Shown one piece after another: positions 45,646 through 55,289 of a DNA stretch of 64,000 nucleotides (positions are counted from its first letter, which is position 1; each line of letters starts with the position of its first letter). The stretch is from Planctomycetia bacterium (lineage in GTDB: Bacteria; Planctomycetota; GCA-002687715): positions 27,906-91,905 of the forward strand of contig SXUL01000115.1 in the NCBI GenBank assembly GCA_005790545.1. The letters are read 5' to 3'. A model generated the notes under the pieces. The model searched no databases. It saw only the letters and a list, made by a program, of their open reading frames with translations, and was not told the origin of the DNA. The translations under genes and the position numbers were made by a program.

Positions 45646-46539
45646 TCACGTTCTCCGCTGCAAGGCCACGTCGAGCTCGCTGCGCATCTTCTCCGCCGCA
45701 GCGCCGATCATTCCGCGCCAGTCCGCGGGCGCCGCGCTGGACCCCCACGGGAACGTGACGGACCGGCTCGCCGTGACGATCGCGCCCAGGCCATCGGCAT
45801 CGAAGCCGCCGACAACATCAGCAGCGCCGGCCCCCTGCGCGCCGTAGCCAGGCAGCAAGAGCACGCTGCCGGGAAGCTCCGCGCGCAAGGCCACGAGATG
45901 AGCCGGCCACGTTGCGCCAACCACCGCGCCCACCGGGCCATACGCCTCCCCGCTCCTCTCGTTCCAGCCGCGCACCAGGGCCGCCACATGCGCACTAATC
46001 GTCTTTCCGTCGCTGACGAGATCCTGCAACTCGGCGCTGCCCGGGTTGCTCGTCTTCACAAGCACAAAGATCCCACCGCCGTGTTGTGTTGCCGCCTTCA
46101 CGAAGGGTTTGACACCGTCGCCGCCGAGGAACGCGTTGACCGTACAGGCATCAGCCAGCGGCGAGAACTCCGCGCCCCCAAGCCAGGCTTCCGCATAGGC
46201 CTCAGCGGTGGTTCCGATATCGCCACGTTTCACGTCCGCGATCACCAGCAGGTCGCGCGCGCGTGCAGCAGCAATGACGCGCTCGAGAGCCGCCACCCCG
46301 GGGCTGCGCAAACGTTCGAAGAAGGCTGCCTGCGGCTTGACCGCCACGGCGACATGTCGCACGGCATCGAGCACGCCAACACAGAACTCCTCGAAGGCCG
46401 CGGCCTGCGCCACAGCGTCGCCCCGTGCAGCTCCCCGGAGCGGTGCTGGAAGCGCCTCGAGGCGAGGGTCCAGTCCGACACACACCGCGGATTTCTTCGC
46501 ACGCATGGCCTCGTGAAGTCGTGCTGCAAATGGTTTCAT
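45646..46539 (-). CDS. pyrF: Orotidine 5'-phosphate decarboxylase (type 2)
   Basis: Makes UMP in pyrimidine synthesis. The start is ATG 46539 (MKPFAARLHEAMRAKKSAVCVGLDPRLEALP), overlapping the upstream amidotransferase stop by 4 bp. The catalytic Asp-Lys-Asp core reads VIADVKRGDIGTTAEAYAEAWLG. Other segments are VKPQAAFFE, FVLVKTSNPGSAELQDL, VGAVVGATWP and LLLPGYGAQGA. These mark the roughly 300-aa type 2 family found in mycobacteria, myxobacteria and planctomycetes. Length 297 aa. It is mid-operon. Confidence 0.94.
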   Translation of the reverse strand: MKPFAARLHEAMRAKKSAVCVGLDPRLEALPAPLRGAARGDAVAQAAAFEEFCVGVLDAVRHVAVAVKPQAAFFERLRSPGVAALERVIAAARARDLLVIADVKRGDIGTTAEAYAEAWLGGAEFSPLADACTVNAFLGGDGVKPFVKAATQHGGGIFVLVKTSNPGSAELQDLVSDGKTISAHVAALVRGWNERSGEAYGPVGAVVGATWPAHLVALRAELPGSVLLLPGYGAQGAGAADVVGGFDADGLGAIVTASRSVTFPWGSSAAPADWRGMIGAAAEKMRSELDVALQRRT

Positions 46540-47123
46540 GCTCGTGGCTCCGCGCACAGGCGGAGAAAGTTCTTGGCGATCTCGTTCCCGTGTTCCGACA
46601 GGAACGACTCCGGATGGAACTGCACGCCGTACAACCGGCGCGCGGGCCAACTCAGCGCCATGATGGTCGACGGATCCCCAGCAACGGTTGCATCACAGGT
46701 CACGGAGTCTGGCAACGTGGATCGCTCCACGATGAGCGAATGGTAGCGCATGACCGTGCAGGGGCTCGGTACCCCGGTGAAGATGCCGTCTCCACAATGC
46801 TCGATCTCGGATGTCTTGCCGTGGCGCTGTTCCAAGGCGCGAACGACGGCGGCTCCGCACGCGCTGGCAATGATCTGCATTCCGAGGCAGACACCGAGAA
46901 TCGGTATGGCTCCATTGCTCTGGCGCACCAGTTCCATGCCGATACCGCGTTCTCCTGGCGCGCCTGGGCCCGGCGAGAGAACAATGCCGACAGGCCGCAT
47001 GCTTGCGACGTCGGCAAGGTTGGTGCGGTCGCAACGCTGTACCAGGACCTTGGCGCCTGCCGCCTCGAGAAGATGCGCGAGGTTGTGCGTGAACGAATCG
47101 TAATGATCGAGAAGGAGCAGCAC
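46536..47123 (-). CDS. trpG: Anthranilate/aminodeoxychorismate synthase glutamine amidotransferase subunit
   Basis: A class I glutamine amidotransferase of 195 aa from GTG 47123. It has LLLDHYDSFTHNLAHLLE at the N terminus, the oxyanion segment LSPGPGAPGERGIGMELV, nucleophile Cys in ILGVCLGMQIIA, and the His-Glu dyad in GVQFHPESFLSEHG. It supplies ammonia to TrpE or PabB for tryptophan or folate. Neither partner is in the window, so trpG and pabA cannot be told apart. It is 6 bp after hemW. Confidence 0.92.
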   Translation of the reverse strand: MLLLLDHYDSFTHNLAHLLEAAGAKVLVQRCDRTNLADVASMRPVGIVLSPGPGAPGERGIGMELVRQSNGAIPILGVCLGMQIIASACGAAVVRALEQRHGKTSEIEHCGDGIFTGVPSPCTVMRYHSLIVERSTLPDSVTCDATVAGDPSTIMALSWPARRLYGVQFHPESFLSEHGNEIAKNFLRLCAEPRA

Positions 47124-47129
47124 GCTGGA

Positions 47130-48323
47130 TCAGACCTTGGGCCAAGCCTCGAACAGTTTGAGCAGAATGCTGTCGAGAAGCCAGAGCCCGTCGTGAGTCA
47201 GTCGGAGATTCTCCGAGTCTTCGTGCAACAGACGCGCTCTCGTTAGATCGGTCAGTATCTCCTTGCATCGTCCTGCCGTGTTGAAGCCGGTGCGTTGATC
47301 GAGTTCTTGAAGGCTCACACCCTCTGCCGTCCTGAGGCCGCTGGTGAGACACTCCATCCAGTCTTCTCGCGGGCCGAGAATGTCTTCCTCTTCAACAGGT
47401 CTTGTGCCGGCCTCGATGGCCTCGATGTAACGCGTCGGTGAATTCACATTGCGGGTCCGCCGTTTCCCGATGCGTCCCCATGCCCCAGCACCCAGACCGT
47501 AATACTCAAGGTTGCGCCAGTAGTTCAGGTTGTGGACCGACTCTTGTCCTTCGCGGCTGAAATTGGATATCTCATAGAGATGGAACCCGGCCTTGTTCAG
47601 ACGCTCACATGCGAGCGCGAACATACGCCGCACAGTTTCCTCAGGGCAAACACTCATTCTACCCTGGCGCAACGCCTCGAAGAATGGTGTTCCCTCCTCA
47701 AACTGGAGTGCGTAGGCGGAGAGGTGTTCCGGTTCGAGCTCGAGCAGTCTCTCCAGGTCCTGCAGCCAGTCCTCTTTACTCTGCCACGGCTGTCCGTAAA
47801 TCAGGTCCAGGTTGATGCGCTGAATACCGGCTTTACGCAGCACGGCGACACTTTCACGAACATCTTCAACGCTGTGCACACGGCCCAGTTTCGAGAGGCG
47901 CTCAGGGTCCATGCTCTGAACCCCCATACTCACACGATCAACGCCAGCAGAGCACAACGCCTCAACGTGATCTCCCGTCAGAGTTCCCGGATTGGCTTCG
48001 ACTGTCCACTCTCGCAAGTGTCCGCGTTCCACCATTGAACCAATGCCTTGCAGGAGTCTCCGGAATTCTGCTGGCTCCAGTTCCGTGGGTGTTCCTCCTC
48101 CGATGTAGATGCTGGAAACCGTATGCCCATGCTGTGTGAGCATGGTGTTCGTTTCACGCAACAAGGCACTGACATAACGCTCCTGTTCTGCTCGAGAGCG
48201 TCCAGCAGCCGAATTGAACGCGCAGTATTCACACTTCCTGACGCAGTAAGGAACATGCACATACAGGGCCGGGAAGAGCGTGGCTTCTCGGCTTGCGCTG
48301 GGTGTCGTGCGCGCGCTTGTCAT
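47130..48323 (-). CDS. hemW: HemW-like radical SAM protein (heme chaperone, HemN family)
   Basis: The 397-aa product has YVHVPYCVRKCEYCAFNS with the CxxxCxxC cluster motif and no fourth Cys of HemN, the HemW-type pattern. Next come IYIGGGTPTELEP, VEANPGTL, VDRVSMGVQSMDPERLSKLGRVHS, NLDLIYGQPWQ and LSAYALQFEEGTPFF. The C-terminal HemN_C region has YEISNFSREGQESVHNLNYWRNLEYYGLGAGAWG. HemW delivers heme and does not oxidise coproporphyrinogen. Base composition is lower in GC than neighbours (hand counts on sampled lines 52-60% against about 67%). It is first in the operon leading to bshA. Confidence 0.9.
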   Translation of the reverse strand: MTSARTTPSASREATLFPALYVHVPYCVRKCEYCAFNSAAGRSRAEQERYVSALLRETNTMLTQHGHTVSSIYIGGGTPTELEPAEFRRLLQGIGSMVERGHLREWTVEANPGTLTGDHVEALCSAGVDRVSMGVQSMDPERLSKLGRVHSVEDVRESVAVLRKAGIQRINLDLIYGQPWQSKEDWLQDLERLLELEPEHLSAYALQFEEGTPFFEALRQGRMSVCPEETVRRMFALACERLNKAGFHLYEISNFSREGQESVHNLNYWRNLEYYGLGAGAWGRIGKRRTRNVNSPTRYIEAIEAGTRPVEEEDILGPREDWMECLTSGLRTAEGVSLQELDQRTGFNTAGRCKEILTDLTRARLLHEDSENLRLTHDGLWLLDSILLKLFEAWPKV

Positions 48324-48677
48324 GAGAGGATGGTTTTATATTGAAACCGCAGTCATCATAGACGTGAGTGAAAGTTCGTGGAGAAGCGAGATGGCGCGCG
48401 CAAAACAACGTTCAAAGAGCGGAAGAAGCAGTTGCGCGTGTTCCACGAAAGATGAGAGTGGAATGTTCAATAGTGGTGTCGGTCATCTGTCGCCGCACGA
48501 ACAAAGCGAGGTGAAGGACGCTTGTCGGACGCGCTCTCCGGAAGAAGAAGGAATGTTCCAGTCGGAAGCCAGGCCTCATACCGGCAGGAAACGGACTGCA
48601 ACAGAGCACCAAGGCTGGGACGCGACAGGTGTCTTCCGGCGTGCGCACAACCAAAACTTGCAATCGTTGTTGATAAC
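48324..48677. other. 354-bp gene-free region upstream of hemW, lower GC
   Basis: No convincing coding frame is present; the longer ORFs here overlap real genes antisense and have poor composition. It must hold the promoter of the hemW operon. A TATAAA on the minus strand lies only about 14 nt before the hemW ATG, with no Shine-Dalgarno sequence, hinting at a very short leader. The 9-mer GAACATTCC occurs twice on the minus strand (near 48463 and 48553), about 90 bp apart. I see no tRNA, SRP, RNase P or tmRNA signature. Confidence 0.5.
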
Positions 48678-49481
48678 TCAGTCGACCATCACGGCGCGCA
48701 GGCGTTCCAGAGTCAGCATCTCGATCTGGCGCACGCGTTCGCGCGTCAGTCCGACGAGATCACCGATCTCCTTGAGGGTTCTCGGGGCCTCTCCATCCAG
48801 GCCGAAGCGCAGGCGCAGGATGGTGGCTTCGCGTGGCTCCATGCCAGCGAGCAATTGTTCAACCTCTTCGCTTTCCGCGAGGGCGAGCAAGGCTTCGTCC
48901 GGTGTTGGCTGCGAGGTGTCGCGCACGAGATCAGCCGAGGAGTTGTCCGGCTCGATGGGAATGGGCTGAGCCATGCCCTGAGCGGCGGCCATGGCGCGCT
49001 CGATGCCGTTCACGTTGTCCACAGGAACCTCGAGCGCCGTGGCGAGCTCTTCTTCTGTGGGCTGACGCCCGAGCTTCTCGGTGAGGTCGCGCTGTGCGGT
49101 GCGCAGGCGGTTGATCAGTTCCATCATGTAGGAAGGGATGCGCACGGTTTTCACCGTGTTGGTGAGAGCGCGTCGGATGGACTGCTTGATCCACCAGGTG
49201 GCATAGGTCGAGAAGCGGCAGCCGGCGTTCGGGTCGAACTTCTCGACACCTTTGATCAACCCCATGTTGCCCTCTTCAATGAGGTCCATGAAGCTCATGC
49301 CGTGGTTCACGTAACGCTTGGCAATACTCACGACGAGCCGGAGATTGGAGCGGATCAGGAGGTCACGGGCCTCGAAATCTCCAGCCTGGACTTTGCGCGC
49401 AAGCCGAACCTCATCCGCCGGGCCGAGCAGGTCCACCGTGTTGATCTCACGGAGATAGATGTTGAGCGTTGCGTCGGCCAT
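48678..49481 (-). CDS. rpoD: RNA polymerase sigma factor, sigma-70 primary type (RpoD/SigA-like)
   Basis: 267 aa from ATG 49481 (MADATLNIYLREINTVDLLGPADEVRLARKVQAGD). Region 1.2 is followed by region 2 (RLVVSIAKRYVNHGMSFMDLIEEGNMGLIKGVEKFDPNAGCRFSTYATWWIKQSIRRAL, including the -10 recognition helix), region 3 (IPSYMMELINRLRTAQRDL) and region 4.2 (TLKEIGDLVGLTRERVRQIEMLTLERLR). Region 1.1 is absent, giving a short form near group 2/RpoS-like size. It could be the main or an alternative sigma-70 factor. The perfect -10 in front of kdsD suits such a sigma. Confidence 0.88.
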   Translation of the reverse strand: MADATLNIYLREINTVDLLGPADEVRLARKVQAGDFEARDLLIRSNLRLVVSIAKRYVNHGMSFMDLIEEGNMGLIKGVEKFDPNAGCRFSTYATWWIKQSIRRALTNTVKTVRIPSYMMELINRLRTAQRDLTEKLGRQPTEEELATALEVPVDNVNGIERAMAAAQGMAQPIPIEPDNSSADLVRDTSQPTPDEALLALAESEEVEQLLAGMEPREATILRLRFGLDGEAPRTLKEIGDLVGLTRERVRQIEMLTLERLRAVMVD

Positions 49482-49501
49482 GGCGAGTGTGCCCTCATGC
49501 G

Positions 49502-50650
49502 TCACCCGCGTTGTGGAATGGGGCGGCGACGCACAGCCCGCAACACCGTCACCACCAGGATCCATAGATCCAAGGCCGGTGACCAGCGTCGCGCATAGGC
49601 GAGGTCGTGGCGCAGCCTCCGACTGATGGACGTGTCGCCCAGAAAGCCGTTGACCTGCGCGAGCCCCGTCATTCCGACGGGCACACGGTGACGCAGGGGG
49701 TACTTCGGCCAACGAGCGGAAAAGGCTTGAGCGAACGCGGGTCTTTCCGGCCGAGGGCCGACAAGAGACATCGAACCCAAGAGGACATTGCCGAGCTGAG
49801 GCAGTTCATCCAGCCAAAACCGGCGCAACAGCCTGCCGTGGCGCGTGATGCGAGGGTCGTCATCCTCTGGCCAGACCGGGATTCCACCTGGCTCGGCGTT
49901 CACCACCATGGTGCGGAGCTTGGGGACCATGAAGAGGCGCCCCCCCAGCCCCAGCCGGACTTGCGCATAGAAAACGGGGCCGCGTTGCAGCCCTTTGAGA
50001 ACAAGCAAAAGCAGAGCGAAGCACGGCAGCAGAAGCGGCAGCGCGGCAAGCACGAGCAGTGTGTCGCACACGCGCTTGACGCAGCTGGCCATGCCCTCGG
50101 CGGGGCCTTCCGGGTGAAGCGGCAACTCCCCGCTCGTCACCTGAACAGAACTCGCGATATCGAGAGGGTCCGGCGGTTCGCCTGCTGGAAAAGGTCCGGG
50201 TTGCCAACGACAGCGTGGCCAGGGGGTGTTTTGCGCGGCAAGGCCGAGGCAGCGCTGGACCTCCCCGTGCTTGAAAGTTCCGCGACAGGCGTCGGGGGGC
50301 AGGAGCATCCAGACCCGAGAGAGCGCCCAAGGAAGGCAGGAAGCGAAAGCTAGTTGCAGGGGCGCTGTCCCCCACATGTCAGTGGCCCCGAGGGCGGCGC
50401 CCAGGCAAAGCTCGAAGCTCCAAGCAACCGCGGCGGCGCCCGAAACCCCGGCGATCCAGACAGACGGCCTCCGCCAGCGCAGCAGGAGGTCGTGGCGAAA
50501 GGCCACCCAGCCCACAAGCAGTGCAGGCAGTGCGCAGGTTCCGGCGCGTGCGGCTGGCAAGAGCGCAGCCAGAAGCAGCGCCGTCCCCAGCAGCACGATG
50601 CGCAGGAGCAAGGGAGCGCGCCCAGGAGGTGGAGCCGTGGTGTCCCGCAA
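49502..50650 (-). CDS. Bacterial sugar transferase (undecaprenyl-phosphate glycosylphosphotransferase)
   Basis: A 382-aa product from a TTG start at 50650 preceded by GGGGA. The N-terminal half has several hydrophobic helices. The C-terminal catalytic domain has VKRVCDTLLVLAALPLLLPCFALLLLVLKG, GPVFYAQVRLGLGGRLFMVPKLRTM and DPRITRHGRLLRRFWLDELPQLGNVLLGSMSLVGPRPERPAF, ending in RHRVPVGMTGLAQVNG. This is the PglC/WbaP-type motif order. It starts polysaccharide repeat-unit assembly by moving a sugar phosphate to a lipid carrier at the inner membrane. It is divergent from the phosphoesterase-like gene. Confidence 0.9.
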   Translation of the reverse strand: MRDTTAPPPGRAPLLLRIVLLGTALLLAALLPAARAGTCALPALLVGWVAFRHDLLLRWRRPSVWIAGVSGAAAVAWSFELCLGAALGATDMWGTAPLQLAFASCLPWALSRVWMLLPPDACRGTFKHGEVQRCLGLAAQNTPWPRCRWQPGPFPAGEPPDPLDIASSVQVTSGELPLHPEGPAEGMASCVKRVCDTLLVLAALPLLLPCFALLLLVLKGLQRGPVFYAQVRLGLGGRLFMVPKLRTMVVNAEPGGIPVWPEDDDPRITRHGRLLRRFWLDELPQLGNVLLGSMSLVGPRPERPAFAQAFSARWPKYPLRHRVPVGMTGLAQVNGFLGDTSISRRLRHDLAYARRWSPALDLWILVVTVLRAVRRRPIPQRG

Positions 50651-51269: not shown

Positions 51270-51992
51270 TCAAATACGCTGACGACGACCGCGCGTCGCG
51301 TCGATGCTCGCGAGCACCGCGCTCAGGGCCAGCGGGAAGAGGGCCTGCAGGGCGGCGTAACCGAGGAGCGCCGGGAGTGGAGGGCCGCGGAGTCCGTGGC
51401 CGACCGGCCCCAGCAGCGCGAGATCCGGCAGGAAGGCCAAGGAAGGCAGGGTTTGGTCCGCTTCCGCCCACGCGGAGGCCCCCAAAAAGAGGATCAGGAG
51501 CGCGAGTGCGCCCGGCAAGGGGCCGAGACGGCGGCCAAGGAAGACGGCCCAGGCTAGAACAACAAGGGTGGCCGCGAGGCTGTGTGTGAGCACGCGGACA
51601 AGAGTTTGACAACCAACAAAAACCGTAAGACATTGCAAAACAAGCAGTTGAATCGCTGCGAGGGCTATGAGGGCGAGCGCGGCGATGGCCCATCGACCCA
51701 CAACGGCAGCAGAGCTCTCCAGGCCAGAGCCAATGGGTGAAGCTCGGGGCCCGCCACGCACGCTCAAAGTGGTGTGCAGGCCGAGCATCACCACCAAGAG
51801 GAGCTGACAGGACGCGGCCGCTTCGTGCAGGGCCGCGGTGCGATCGCCGAGAGGCAGTGGGAGGGCGACCAGTAGACCAAACAGACCGGCAGCAACGAGC
51901 GCGGCTATGCGCGTGATCGGTGAACGCAGTGCCTGGCGGGCCGCGCCCCTGGCGCAAGCTCCCCACGGGTTCTTGGCGCTGGGCTCAGCCAC
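51270..51992 (-). CDS. Polytopic membrane protein, unknown
   Basis: 240 aa from GTG 51992. At least six hydrophobic segments can be read (for example RIAALVAAGLFGLLVALPL, WAIAALALIALAAIQLLVLQ, LVVLAWAVFLGRRLGPLPGALALLILFLGA). The arrangement is similar to ABC-2-type exporter permeases, but no defining motif is seen and no ATPase gene is adjacent. Divergent from the ParA-like gene; the intervening 41 bp contain a parS palindrome, so both promoters may be affected by ParB binding. Confidence 0.65.
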   Translation of the reverse strand: MAEPSAKNPWGACARGAARQALRSPITRIAALVAAGLFGLLVALPLPLGDRTAALHEAAASCQLLLVVMLGLHTTLSVRGGPRASPIGSGLESSAAVVGRWAIAALALIALAAIQLLVLQCLTVFVGCQTLVRVLTHSLAATLVVLAWAVFLGRRLGPLPGALALLILFLGASAWAEADQTLPSLAFLPDLALLGPVGHGLRGPPLPALLGYAALQALFPLALSAVLASIDATRGRRQRI

Positions 51993-52008: not shown

Positions 52009-52022
52009 GTTCCACGTGGAAC
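52009..52022. promoter_or_regulatory. parS: parS centromere-like site 1
   Basis: The perfect palindrome GTTCCACGTGGAAC matches the core of the bacterial parS consensus (TGTTNCACGTGNAACA). It lies 11 bp before the start codon of the ParA-like gene, overlapping its translation initiation region. Confidence 0.88.
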
Positions 52023-52033
52023 ATGGAGCGGCC

Positions 52034-52531
52034 ATGCGTTGGGTTGAGATCACAGGCTCAAGTGCTTTCCAGCGCGCGCGCGTGGCCGCAAATCTAGCGG
52101 TTTTGGCCGCACTGGGGAAGGTCGGTGGTGGCTTGGTGTGCGCAGATCAGCGCCTGGCCAGTGCGGCTGCGGCCCACGGGGTCGCGATCGGTGGGTCCGC
52201 TGATGGGCCTGGGGTTGGGTTTTCTGGTGAAGGAGCACTGCCGGGCGCCCCTGTTCTCCAGCTCCGACTGCTGGATACCCCCACGGACGACTTGTTCCAC
52301 GTGGAACGTGCGTCCCATCCTCCCGTGCGGCTTGTGGTGGTGGGCTCGGACGTGGACGTCTTTGAGCGCGCTGTGCGGCGCCGACAGGTCGCGGGCCTGG
52401 AGCCTGTGCTGCCCTATCGCGCGCCGACCCTCGACGCTGAGCCGACACTTGTGGTGGTGGACGCGGATATGAGTCCGTCAGGTTTGGCTTTGGTGGAACT
52501 GTTGCAGGAGGTCATGAACGATGTTGGATAA
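52034..52531 (+). CDS. ParA-like protein without a Walker A motif (remnant or variant), 165 aa
   Basis: The start is ATG 52034 with GGAG before it. It is the gene directly upstream of parB, the usual place of parA, and overlaps parB by 11 bp. The N terminus MRWVEITGSSAFQRARVAANLAVLAALGKVGGGLVCADQ lines up with ParA (VIAIxNQKGGVGKTTTAVNLAAALA..GK.VLLVDxDPQ). The KGGVGKTT loop is replaced by SSAFQRAR and the DxDPQ motif by CADQ. It is far shorter than ParA (about 255 aa). A parS site lies inside the coding region. Homology is by eye and not certain; ATPase activity is not expected. Confidence 0.6.
   Translation: MRWVEITGSSAFQRARVAANLAVLAALGKVGGGLVCADQRLASAAAAHGVAIGGSADGPGVGFSGEGALPGAPVLQLRLLDTPTDDLFHVERASHPPVRLVVVGSDVDVFERAVRRRQVAGLEPVLPYRAPTLDAEPTLVVVDADMSPSGLALVELLQEVMNDVG
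52294..52307. promoter_or_regulatory. parS: parS centromere-like site 2
   Basis: A second perfect GTTCCACGTGGAAC, inside the ParA-like gene (coding for part of DLFHVERA), 285 bp from site 1 and 214 bp before parB. Confidence 0.88.
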
Positions 52532-53429
52532 GGGAAGTCGACTGGGGCGCGGGCTGGAAGGTCTCATTCCGGCAGCTCGTGAAGGCAAGCTCACCGCGGC
52601 GGTGGTGGCGGCCGCAGGCCTGCAGGTGCTGCGCATCCCCTTGAAGAAACTCCAGGCCAACCCATGGCAGCCGCGGAAGGACTTCAGCACACAGGCCCTG
52701 AACGAACTCGTGGAATCGCTAAGGGTTCATGGCCTGATGCAACCCATTGTGGTCCGGACGCACGCGAGCGGATATCAGCTCATCGCGGGCGAACGGCGCT
52801 GGCGTGCAGCCCAGGAACTAGGCTGGACGGAGATGGATGCTGTGGTGGCGGAAGCTGACGACCGCCGGATGATGGAGTGGGCGCTGCTGGAGAATCTCCA
52901 GCGCCAGGACCTTGGTCCCCTCGAGATCGCAGAAGGTCTGCAACGCTTCATGGCGGGCACGGGGCTCGGCCAGGAAGAGATGGCAAAGCGGCTGAGCATG
53001 AGTCGGCCAGCGGTTGCCAATCATCTCCGGCTTCTCGAGCTGCCCGCGAGTATTCGCAGCCGGATTGCGCAGGGCACCATCAGTATGGGCGCGGCGCGCG
53101 CCCTCCTGAGCATCAAGGACCGCAAGGTCCAAGAGGACGCAGCCCGACGTGTGGCCGAGGGCCTGCTGACGGTGCGTCAAGTTGAAGCCTTGACACAGGC
53201 GCGGGCGGCCAGCGTGACGCCTGTCGATCCCAACCTCAAGGCGGTGGGGGAGGAAATCCAGTCCCTTCTCGGCACACGCGTGCAGGTGCGAGGACGCCTG
53301 GACCGCGGACGCGTGGTGGTGAGCTACAGCTCGCGCCGCCAACTGGACGGGCTGTTGCGCAAACTCCGCGCTCTCGACGCCGAGCGCGCAGAGGATGCCT
53401 CAGGTGATGACGGCCTGCTCAAAATCTGA
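52521..53429 (+). CDS. parB: Chromosome-partitioning protein ParB
   Basis: 302 aa from ATG 52521 with GGAGG just upstream. N-terminal RLGRGLEGLIP is the conserved ParB start. The CTP-binding domain shows IPLKKLQANPWQPRKDF, IVVRTHASGYQLIAGERRWRAAQELG (C-box GERRxRA) and ENLQRQDLGPLEIAEGL. The helix-turn-helix reads GLGQEEMAKRLSMSRPAVANHLRLLELP, followed by ISMGAARALLSI. The C-terminal dimerisation part is VQVRGRLDRGRVVVSYSSRRQLDGLLRKL. It loads at the two parS sites next to it. The canonical parA partner is missing here. Confidence 0.95.
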   Translation: MLDKGSRLGRGLEGLIPAAREGKLTAAVVAAAGLQVLRIPLKKLQANPWQPRKDFSTQALNELVESLRVHGLMQPIVVRTHASGYQLIAGERRWRAAQELGWTEMDAVVAEADDRRMMEWALLENLQRQDLGPLEIAEGLQRFMAGTGLGQEEMAKRLSMSRPAVANHLRLLELPASIRSRIAQGTISMGAARALLSIKDRKVQEDAARRVAEGLLTVRQVEALTQARAASVTPVDPNLKAVGEEIQSLLGTRVQVRGRLDRGRVVVSYSSRRQLDGLLRKLRALDAERAEDASGDDGLLKI

Positions 53430-53607: not shown

Positions 53608-54816
53608 TCAGTTCTTGGCTTCGGGCTTCGCGGGAAGTTTGAAGGAGCGCAGCACGGGCACCGCGGGCTTCACCGCAGGAGAACCAGTAACCGTCACCGC
53701 AGTGATGGTCCACGGCTTCTCGAGCACGTGCACTGCACAGTGGTCCACATGACCCTGCGGATCCTTCTTCGCGAGCGCACCATCGAGTTGGGTCAGCACC
53801 TCATCCGAACCCTTCACCTCTGCGAAGACCGTGCGGTCGTCGTTGCGGGGGAGCTCCTTGGTGAGCAGCAGCATGTTCACAGGGCTGATGCCCACGAATG
53901 AAACACCATCGAAGGCCTTCTCCATGAGCAAGCGGCCGCGCTTGCACTTCAAGCGGTTGGCTTCCTTCGGCAGAGTGAAGCCGGCGTCTTCCGAGTTGCC
54001 GCCCCAGAGGTCCTGCCGATCCGGCGCAACGCGCGCGAGCACAGAGCCCATGAGGACACCCCGCCCCGCAGTGCTTTCGAGCGTCTCTCGCTCCTGCGCA
54101 TAAACGAGCGAGCCGTTGAAGTGACCCTCGGTCGCCATCTTGATGAAGTTGTCGACGGCTTGCGGTGCTTCTGCGGAGAAGAACTGCAACTCCAGCGCGT
54201 GGCTCTTGCCATCCGGATCGGTGAGGGTCAGCGTGGCGCTGAGCCTTGCGTCCGGAGTCTCCGCTGCATCCGCCTTGTGCGATTCCAGCCAGGCGATTTG
54301 CGTGCGGCAATACTCGACCAGTTTTGCCGGAGCCGTGGGCACAGTCTGCCCCGGCTGCAACACCGGACGCCATGGAATCTTCGCGATGAGATTCTCGTTG
54401 AAGCGTCCCTGAAAGGCGCTGGCATCTTCCAGCGCACGCTTGAAGTGCTCGAGCTTCTTCGCGGGGTCTTCGCTGTTGTCGCCCGCCTCACGCTCGGCAC
54501 GCGCGGTGTTCATCAGCACAAAGGCTTCCTGCGGCTTGCCCTGCACCGACGCAAGGACGTCGCGCAGCGCAGCGGCGCGTTCGGCGCCCTCGGGCTTCGT
54601 CACCGCAGAAGTGTAATTCTCGGCGAGTTTGTCAGAGGCCTCTCGGTCCGAGGAGCTGGTCAAGTTGCGCACGATGATGATGCCAGCCACGAGGGTGCCC
54701 GCGATGAGCAGCAGCGTGACGTAGCGCTTCGGGCGCGCCGCAAGATCGTCACCCAGAGCTGCGAGTCCGGCCTTCGGCTCGGCAGCCGCGTTCTTGTCAG
54801 TTGAAGTCTGTGCCAT
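53608..54816 (-). CDS. Membrane-anchored cyclophilin-like protein with degenerate active site
   Basis: 402 aa from ATG 54816 (MAQTSTDKNAAAEP). One transmembrane helix at about residues 33-51 (YVTLLLIAGTLVAGIIIV) is followed by a helical segment and a C-terminal cyclophilin-like domain. The domain pattern EAPQAVDNFIKMATEGHFNGSLVY matches the PPIase start (usual ..NFxxLxxxGxYdgtxFHR), but the FHR Arg is absent. The usual SQFFI block reads SPVNMLLL, while DDRTVFAEVKGSDEVLTQLDG matches the ltVFGkV segment. It is probably not an active prolyl isomerase. It lies downstream of a lipoprotein gene on the same strand. Confidence 0.7.
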   Translation of the reverse strand: MAQTSTDKNAAAEPKAGLAALGDDLAARPKRYVTLLLIAGTLVAGIIIVRNLTSSSDREASDKLAENYTSAVTKPEGAERAAALRDVLASVQGKPQEAFVLMNTARAEREAGDNSEDPAKKLEHFKRALEDASAFQGRFNENLIAKIPWRPVLQPGQTVPTAPAKLVEYCRTQIAWLESHKADAAETPDARLSATLTLTDPDGKSHALELQFFSAEAPQAVDNFIKMATEGHFNGSLVYAQERETLESTAGRGVLMGSVLARVAPDRQDLWGGNSEDAGFTLPKEANRLKCKRGRLLMEKAFDGVSFVGISPVNMLLLTKELPRNDDRTVFAEVKGSDEVLTQLDGALAKKDPQGHVDHCAVHVLEKPWTITAVTVTGSPAVKPAVPVLRSFKLPAKPEAKN

Positions 54817-54836
54817 GTCGAATCCTTGGGTCCTTG

Positions 54837-55289
54837 TCAGCGATCGCTGGCGCCGCGGCGCTTGATGACGATCCGTGTGCCGTCCTTGACCGTCGTTATT
54901 TCGACCAGACAAGTGGAACGGTCCTTGGCAAATGTGAGAGAGCGGGTCCCGCTATCGTTCGCGTCGCCCTTCGAGGTCCAGCCGTACGGGCGGGCCCCCA
55001 TGGTGTCTTTGTAGAACGTCGCCACTCGTTCCGCGTCGAGCAGTCCCCAATAGTGCTGATCGCAGAGCTTCACGCCGCCCTCTTCATAGGAGAACGACCT
55101 GTTCTCGCGGTCGACGAGCTCGAAGCGCTCGGGCACAGGAACATCGTCCATCTGTGCTCGTTGAAGCTCCCTCGAGCGCGTCTCATCGACAGACGGCTGC
55201 GCGGGGTTCAGGGTGCGCGGGTTTTCGAGCTGTTCGGTGCAGGCCACGAAAAGCAGGCCCGACGCGATCACAAGCAGAGCGTTCTTCAC
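54837..55289 (-). CDS. Hypothetical lipoprotein, 150 aa
   Basis: From GTG 55289 behind GGAGGA. The N terminus MKNALLVIASGLLFVACTEQ carries a lipobox (FVAC) with lipidated Cys17. The mature part has DVPVPERFELVDRENRSFSYEEGGVKLCDQHYWGLLDAERVATFYKDTM, which resembles small planctomycete/proteobacterial lipoproteins that begin with VPxPxxF. The link to a named family is not firm. It is transcribed into the cyclophilin-like gene 20 bp downstream. Confidence 0.72.
   Translation of the reverse strand: MKNALLVIASGLLFVACTEQLENPRTLNPAQPSVDETRSRELQRAQMDDVPVPERFELVDRENRSFSYEEGGVKLCDQHYWGLLDAERVATFYKDTMGARPYGWTSKGDANDSGTRSLTFAKDRSTCLVEITTVKDGTRIVIKRRGASDR

Follow-up and report, generated by a model that had tools for sequence, protein, structure and literature searches.

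How does a chromosomal partition operon work when the gene in the place of its parA does not appear to encode an ATPase? The question is raised by a 165-aa ORF of genome G000 that precedes parB, overlaps it by 11 nt, and carries a parS site, all within a 64,000-nt stretch of DNA (the window). A probable answer, and the one favored here, is a ParABS system whose ParA acts in trans and whose linked parA has eroded to an open remnant carrying parS. The assembly of G000 spans 2.87 Mb in 133 contigs and is 91% complete, with ~9% of the genome missing. The features of the locus are collected in Table 1.

Table 1. Features of the parB locus, in window coordinates
Feature	Position	Strand	Basis or remarks
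Divergent putative membrane protein	51270..51992	-	no Pfam family
parS site 1	52009..52022		perfect palindrome; 5′ leader of the 165-aa ORF; only two such sites genome-wide
165-aa ORF, putative remnant of parB-linked ParA	52034..52531	+	transitive profile homology, synteny, alignment, in-frame conservation
parS site 2	52294..52307		inside the 165-aa ORF, codons FHVE; aligned codons in congener G002
AGGAGG, Shine-Dalgarno-like sequence of parB	52505..52510	+	within the last codons of the 165-aa ORF
parB, 302 aa	52521..53429	+	ParB_N, HTH_ParB, ParB_C; N-terminal ParA-binding motif LGRGLEGLI intact
Downstream neighbor, putative cyclophilin (peptidyl-prolyl isomerase)-like	53608..54912	-	sequence reading; conserved, synteny marker

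The first-pass annotation read the 165-aa ORF as ParA-like, with SSAFQRAR in place of the phosphate-binding loop and CADQ in place of DxDPQ. Both motif readings are right in the alignment, which has TG-SSAFQRARVAAN at the P-loop and V-CADQ at the DxD motif; SSAFQRAR does not conform to the deviant Walker A motif KGGxGK[ST]. The P-loop, the signature lysine, the Walker B region, and the ParB-binding pocket are all missing from the aligned ORF. No ParA family model in Pfam or NCBIfam matches it, and its link to ParA is therefore drawn through relatives. In the congener G002, the slot is occupied by a 175-aa ORF that also lacks a P-loop and has parS at the same two positions. G004 and G005, of the same family as G000, have ORFs of 219–220 aa with recognizable P-loops (GKPRVGKTT and RQSKVGRTT). 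The profile of the G000 and G002 ORFs matches that of the G004 and G005 ORFs with an E value of 3.3e-6 over 166 columns, and the latter profile matches ParA with an E value of 2.2e-23 over 218 columns; compared directly with ParA, the G000 and G002 profile gives no significant match (E 0.17). Reversed-sequence controls for these comparisons are negative. Two-step profile homology and synteny indicate that the 165-aa ORF shares descent with ParA, via intermediates only, and together with the alignment they uphold the initial description of a ParA-derived ORF without a Walker A motif in the parA slot. A single-sequence AlphaFold2 model of the product (pLDDT 44, pTM 0.31) is too low in confidence for a fold search.

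Across the order, the surroundings of this slot are common to family f1 (that of G000) and family f3, and mostly to f2, with the gene order pyrF-pabA-hemW-sigma70-sugar transferase-phosphoesterase-[ORF]-parB-cyclophilin-like gene. Because this order is shared, the ORFs before parB can be taken to occupy one and the same parA slot. Linked ParAs of f2 are ~250 aa long, with a P-loop present in G008 and G010 and both P-loop lysines replaced in G006. Of the f1 intermediates, G004 keeps GKTT and G005 has GRTT, with Arg for Lys. The P-loop is absent from the linked ORFs of G000, G002, and the f3 genomes G009 and G011, and in G003 the slot is reduced to a ~225-bp gap that contains parS and no ORF, next to an intact parB. 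Pfam AAA_31 scores are 175 bits for the stand-alone ParA discussed below, 97 for G008, 72 for G006, 29 for G004, and 25 for G005; the linked ORFs of G000, G002, G009, and G011 give no AAA_31 match. These states show a graded decay of the parB-linked parA from (i) a gene with its P-loop, through (ii) loss of the lysines and (iii) a remnant of ~165–190 aa, to (iv) deletion.

Several details accompany this comparison. In the G006 linked ParA (L021), the P-loop lysine is replaced by Met and the signature lysine is lost, with DLDPQ and DCPPT intact. The divergent membrane protein gene has a clear homologue in G002 only (32%), and a minus-strand ORF fills its slot in G003–G005. A scan for related loci with ParB returned distant relatives only, and ParB absence is uninformative for G001, where the neighbor gene was not found, and for G007, whose contig ends right after it.

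The f3 linked ORFs carry an internal parS at a different position from that in G000 and G002. Their homology to ParA covers 34 N-terminal residues only (E 0.0017), complemented by position, and was not shown beyond those residues. If f1 is one clade (tree support 87/83), the linked-parA losses in the G000 genus and in f3 would be independent; a single loss is also conceivable because the stand-alone ParA tree groups the G000 genus with f3.

Relatives thus have fuller copies of parA at this locus, one half of what the first-pass annotation had named as counterevidence; the other half, a stop-riddled copy here, does not hold, the G000 copy being stop-free and conserved in frame. With parS and the parB overlap masked, the G000–G002 similarity reaches a Z score of 7.8 in frame and at most 1.9 in the other five frames, so the codon-level check outside the parS bases came out in favor of conservation. 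All indels between the two ORFs are multiples of three. These data bear on whether the ORF is a gene or merely a GC-rich open frame spanning the parS region together with the parB promoter. Long open frames are common at high GC, a 132-aa antisense ORF overlaps this one, and no family model matches it; against such a reading, conservation is found in this frame alone, GC by codon position is coding-like, and both the slot and the parB overlap are the same as in fuller ParA genes. A spurious ORF is extremely unlikely.

The same in-frame signal and indel pattern favor another possibility, namely that the product is a retained pseudo-ParA, a protein without ATPase activity that still binds ParB, ParA, or DNA and modulates partition or the expression of parB. 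The similar-looking ~190-aa ORF of f3 is more clearly constrained (37% identity, masked Z 30), and there a null model forbidding only stops is rejected at every distance tried. For the G000–G002 pair, whose synonymous distance is ~1.4–1.6 (NG86, near saturation), this null reaches the observed score in 0 of 150 simulations at distances of at least 1.2 but in half of them at 0.8. Since the similarity exceeds the frame-keeping null at a synonymous distance of at least 1.2, some protein function may remain. Against a retained pseudo-ParA, the congener ORFs are only 28% identical, versus 67% for ParB and 71% for the stand-alone ParA, which points to a fast-evolving ORF under weak amino acid constraint. 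The dN/dS values of 0.56 for the ORF and 0.21 for parB are not relied on, given the near saturation of dS and the similar per-position differences obtained with a codon-shuffled control. In addition, the ORF has lost the segments that form the ParB pocket and the Walker B region, G003 lacks the gene altogether but has intact parB and parS, and the ParA homology of the f3 ORFs is as short as described above. A retained pseudo-ParA is therefore considered unlikely, although it is the chief competitor of the favored reading. Quite unlikely, too, is the wider proposal of two independent conversions of linked ParA, in separate lineages, to a pseudo-ParA without ATPase activity; the gene would then serve as the centromere, and its product would still act in partition together with a ParA in trans. 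Of the two roles first suggested for the ORF, parS carrier and ParB partner, the former stands; the latter is unproven, given the missing pocket regions, although weak conservation remains.

The carrier role is evident from the distribution of the sites. The window contains GTTCCACGTGGAAC exactly at the two parS positions of Table 1, both perfect, as initially reported, and palindromic, and no third parS occurs in it when up to two mismatches are allowed. Genome-wide, GTTYCACGTGRAAC matches only these two positions of the 2.87-Mb assembly, and nine further genomes of the order also contain matches, all of them at the parB locus. The two sites share one codon frame. One lies inside the ORF, as noted at the outset; the other, then placed over the translation start, stops 11 nt short of the ATG (52034) and hence belongs to the 5′ leader.

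Elsewhere in the phylum parS is also found within parB. In G003, G004, and G005 (L011, L012, and L013), a parS reading GTTTCACGTGGAAC lies ~540 nt into parB, and the same sequence apparently occurs at a similar position in many other genomes of the phylum. The parB of G000 has no internal parS, its second parS being inside the parA remnant. The cumulative GC skew has its minimum at ~46–50 kb (window positions 46000–50000), at a distance of 2–6 kb from parS, which weakly hints at a nearby replication origin.

ParB itself has the features of chromosomal ParB/Spo0J proteins, including ParB_N, the HTH, the C-terminal dimer domain, and the ParA-binding peptide. Translational coupling of parB is suggested by the position of the AGGAGG within the final ORF codons and by the overlap of the linked ORF with parB, which is retained in most relatives. 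The 165-aa ORF is probably a translational leader of parB, which would be coupled to it.

As the first-pass annotation had surmised, a ParA is encoded elsewhere. A genome search found a Soj-type ParA of 430 aa on contig C88 (NQKGGVGKTTT), the sole true ParA found in G000 and unlinked to parB. It is full length and has the KGGVGKT, DxDPQ, and CPPS motifs of ParA/Soj proteins, and its closest PDB relatives are 8ray (ParA), followed by Soj proteins. The other AAA_31 matches in G000 are Mrp/ApbC and Ffh; the 488-aa match is presumably Ffh, judging from its sequence. A canonical ParABS operon has an intact parA adjacent to parB, whereas here the intact parA lies on another contig. In eight of the nine order relatives for which the locus was fetched, the stand-alone ParA gene adjoins queC, the contig of the ninth (G010) ending at that point; lysS is found close by, likewise in eight of these nine genomes. 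In G004 both the stand-alone ParA and queC are missing, so the locus is probably unassembled and the absence uninformative. Phylogenetic analysis of 49 ParAs places the stand-alone copies of the phylum in a single clade (98/96), which includes one long-branch intruder, and the parB-linked copies outside that clade. The stand-alone ParA is slow-evolving. A PSD1 domain occurs in G000 and its relatives but is absent from all 14 control genomes, which suggests that the phylum is Planctomycetota. The stand-alone ParA (L001:1471-2763) ends in a C-terminal tail of ~160 residues with a high content of Ala, Pro, and Lys; long tails are also found in congeners, and those of other relatives are shorter and differently composed.

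Whether this protein partners ParB can be approached through the interface of the two. In M. xanthus ParA, the pocket for the ParB N-terminal motif comprises V116, L150, L152, L155, L187, and L192 (PMC12462528). The C88 ParA has Leu at all six positions, keeping five of the six residues with Val replaced by Leu at the sixth; the 165-aa ORF lacks the segments bearing most of them. All 10 order members in which a ParB locus is present, among them G003 without any linked parA, have an intact ParA-binding motif in ParB. The motif has been lost in the family f7 genomes G015 and G046, in which no Soj-type ParA was found, and these two are candidate natural ParA-less ParB-parS systems. The f7 ParBs (L089 of G046 and L075 of G015) begin directly at the ParB_N domain. 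G043 keeps the motif without a detectable Soj-type ParA. Among 42 genomes scored by hand from upstream ORFs, an unlinked ParA of at least 150 bits occurs in 23 of 28 without a canonical linked ParA versus 3 of 14 with one (p 4e-4 by a Fisher test that ignores shared ancestry). The threshold was chosen in this analysis; p is 0.0015 at 100 bits and 0.0002 at 200 bits. Divergent linked ParAs (G004–G006, G008, G010, and G021) were left out of the count. The conserved pocket residues suggest that the C88 ParA may partner this ParB, although it could serve another cargo.

The interface also bears on the suggestion that segregation relies on ParB and parS without any ParA, solely through SMC loading, as is the case in Streptococcus pneumoniae and Staphylococcus aureus. 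Such ParA-less systems are known (PMC7333895), and G000 encodes SMC, whose presence is usual anyway. This mode is not supported and is very unlikely, because one complete Soj-type ParA is present in the genome and ParB retains the ParA-binding motif that is lost in f7.

The favored reading, ParABS with its ParA in trans, can be outlined as follows. The own parA of the chromosomal parABS operon would have eroded, leaving the 165-aa ORF. ParB bound at both parS sites would be moved by the single intact Soj-type ParA (G000:C88, beside queC), acting in trans via the conserved N-terminal LGRGL..LI peptide of ParB. The remnant, predicted to be devoid of ATPase and ParB-binding activity, would be kept open by the parS within it and by the translation of parB from its end, through the overlap and an internal ribosome site; its amino acid sequence would be under weak constraint.

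The system resembles chromosomal ParABS (Soj/Spo0J) in its ParB N-terminal motif, canonical parS, Soj-type ParA, and SMC. Unlike in such systems, the linked ParA has decayed or been deleted, the sole intact ParA is encoded at an unlinked locus, and all parS sites are at the remnant. With the ParA-less ParB-parS systems of Streptococcus pneumoniae and Staphylococcus aureus (PMC7333895, PMC7022226) it shares the lack of a working parA beside parB, but it has an intact ParA at another locus as well as a remnant, and its ParB retains the motif. Orphan ParAs that serve other cargo (PpfA, ParC, and McdA; PMC9178275) are likewise encoded away from parB; the C88 protein, in contrast, is the only ParA found in its genome, is Soj-like with KGGVGKT, and has conserved ParB-pocket residues, its cargo being putative. 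Partition in Borrelia burgdorferi, described as being under unusual control (PMC9712426), is similar in that it departs from the standard arrangement. A limited search of the open-access literature found no description of a linked parA remnant combined with a ParA in trans, which is weak evidence of novelty. To our knowledge, no parA remnant carrying parS is known in B. burgdorferi.

Within one order, these loci form a graded natural series in which a partition operon loses its ATPase while ParB, parS, and synteny stay, and they point to a separation of ParA from ParB throughout the phylum. Should the unlinked ParA be confirmed as the motor, ParA could be supplied from an unlinked locus and a parB-linked parA would often be dispensable. 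Why parA and parB are usually kept together would then become a testable question.
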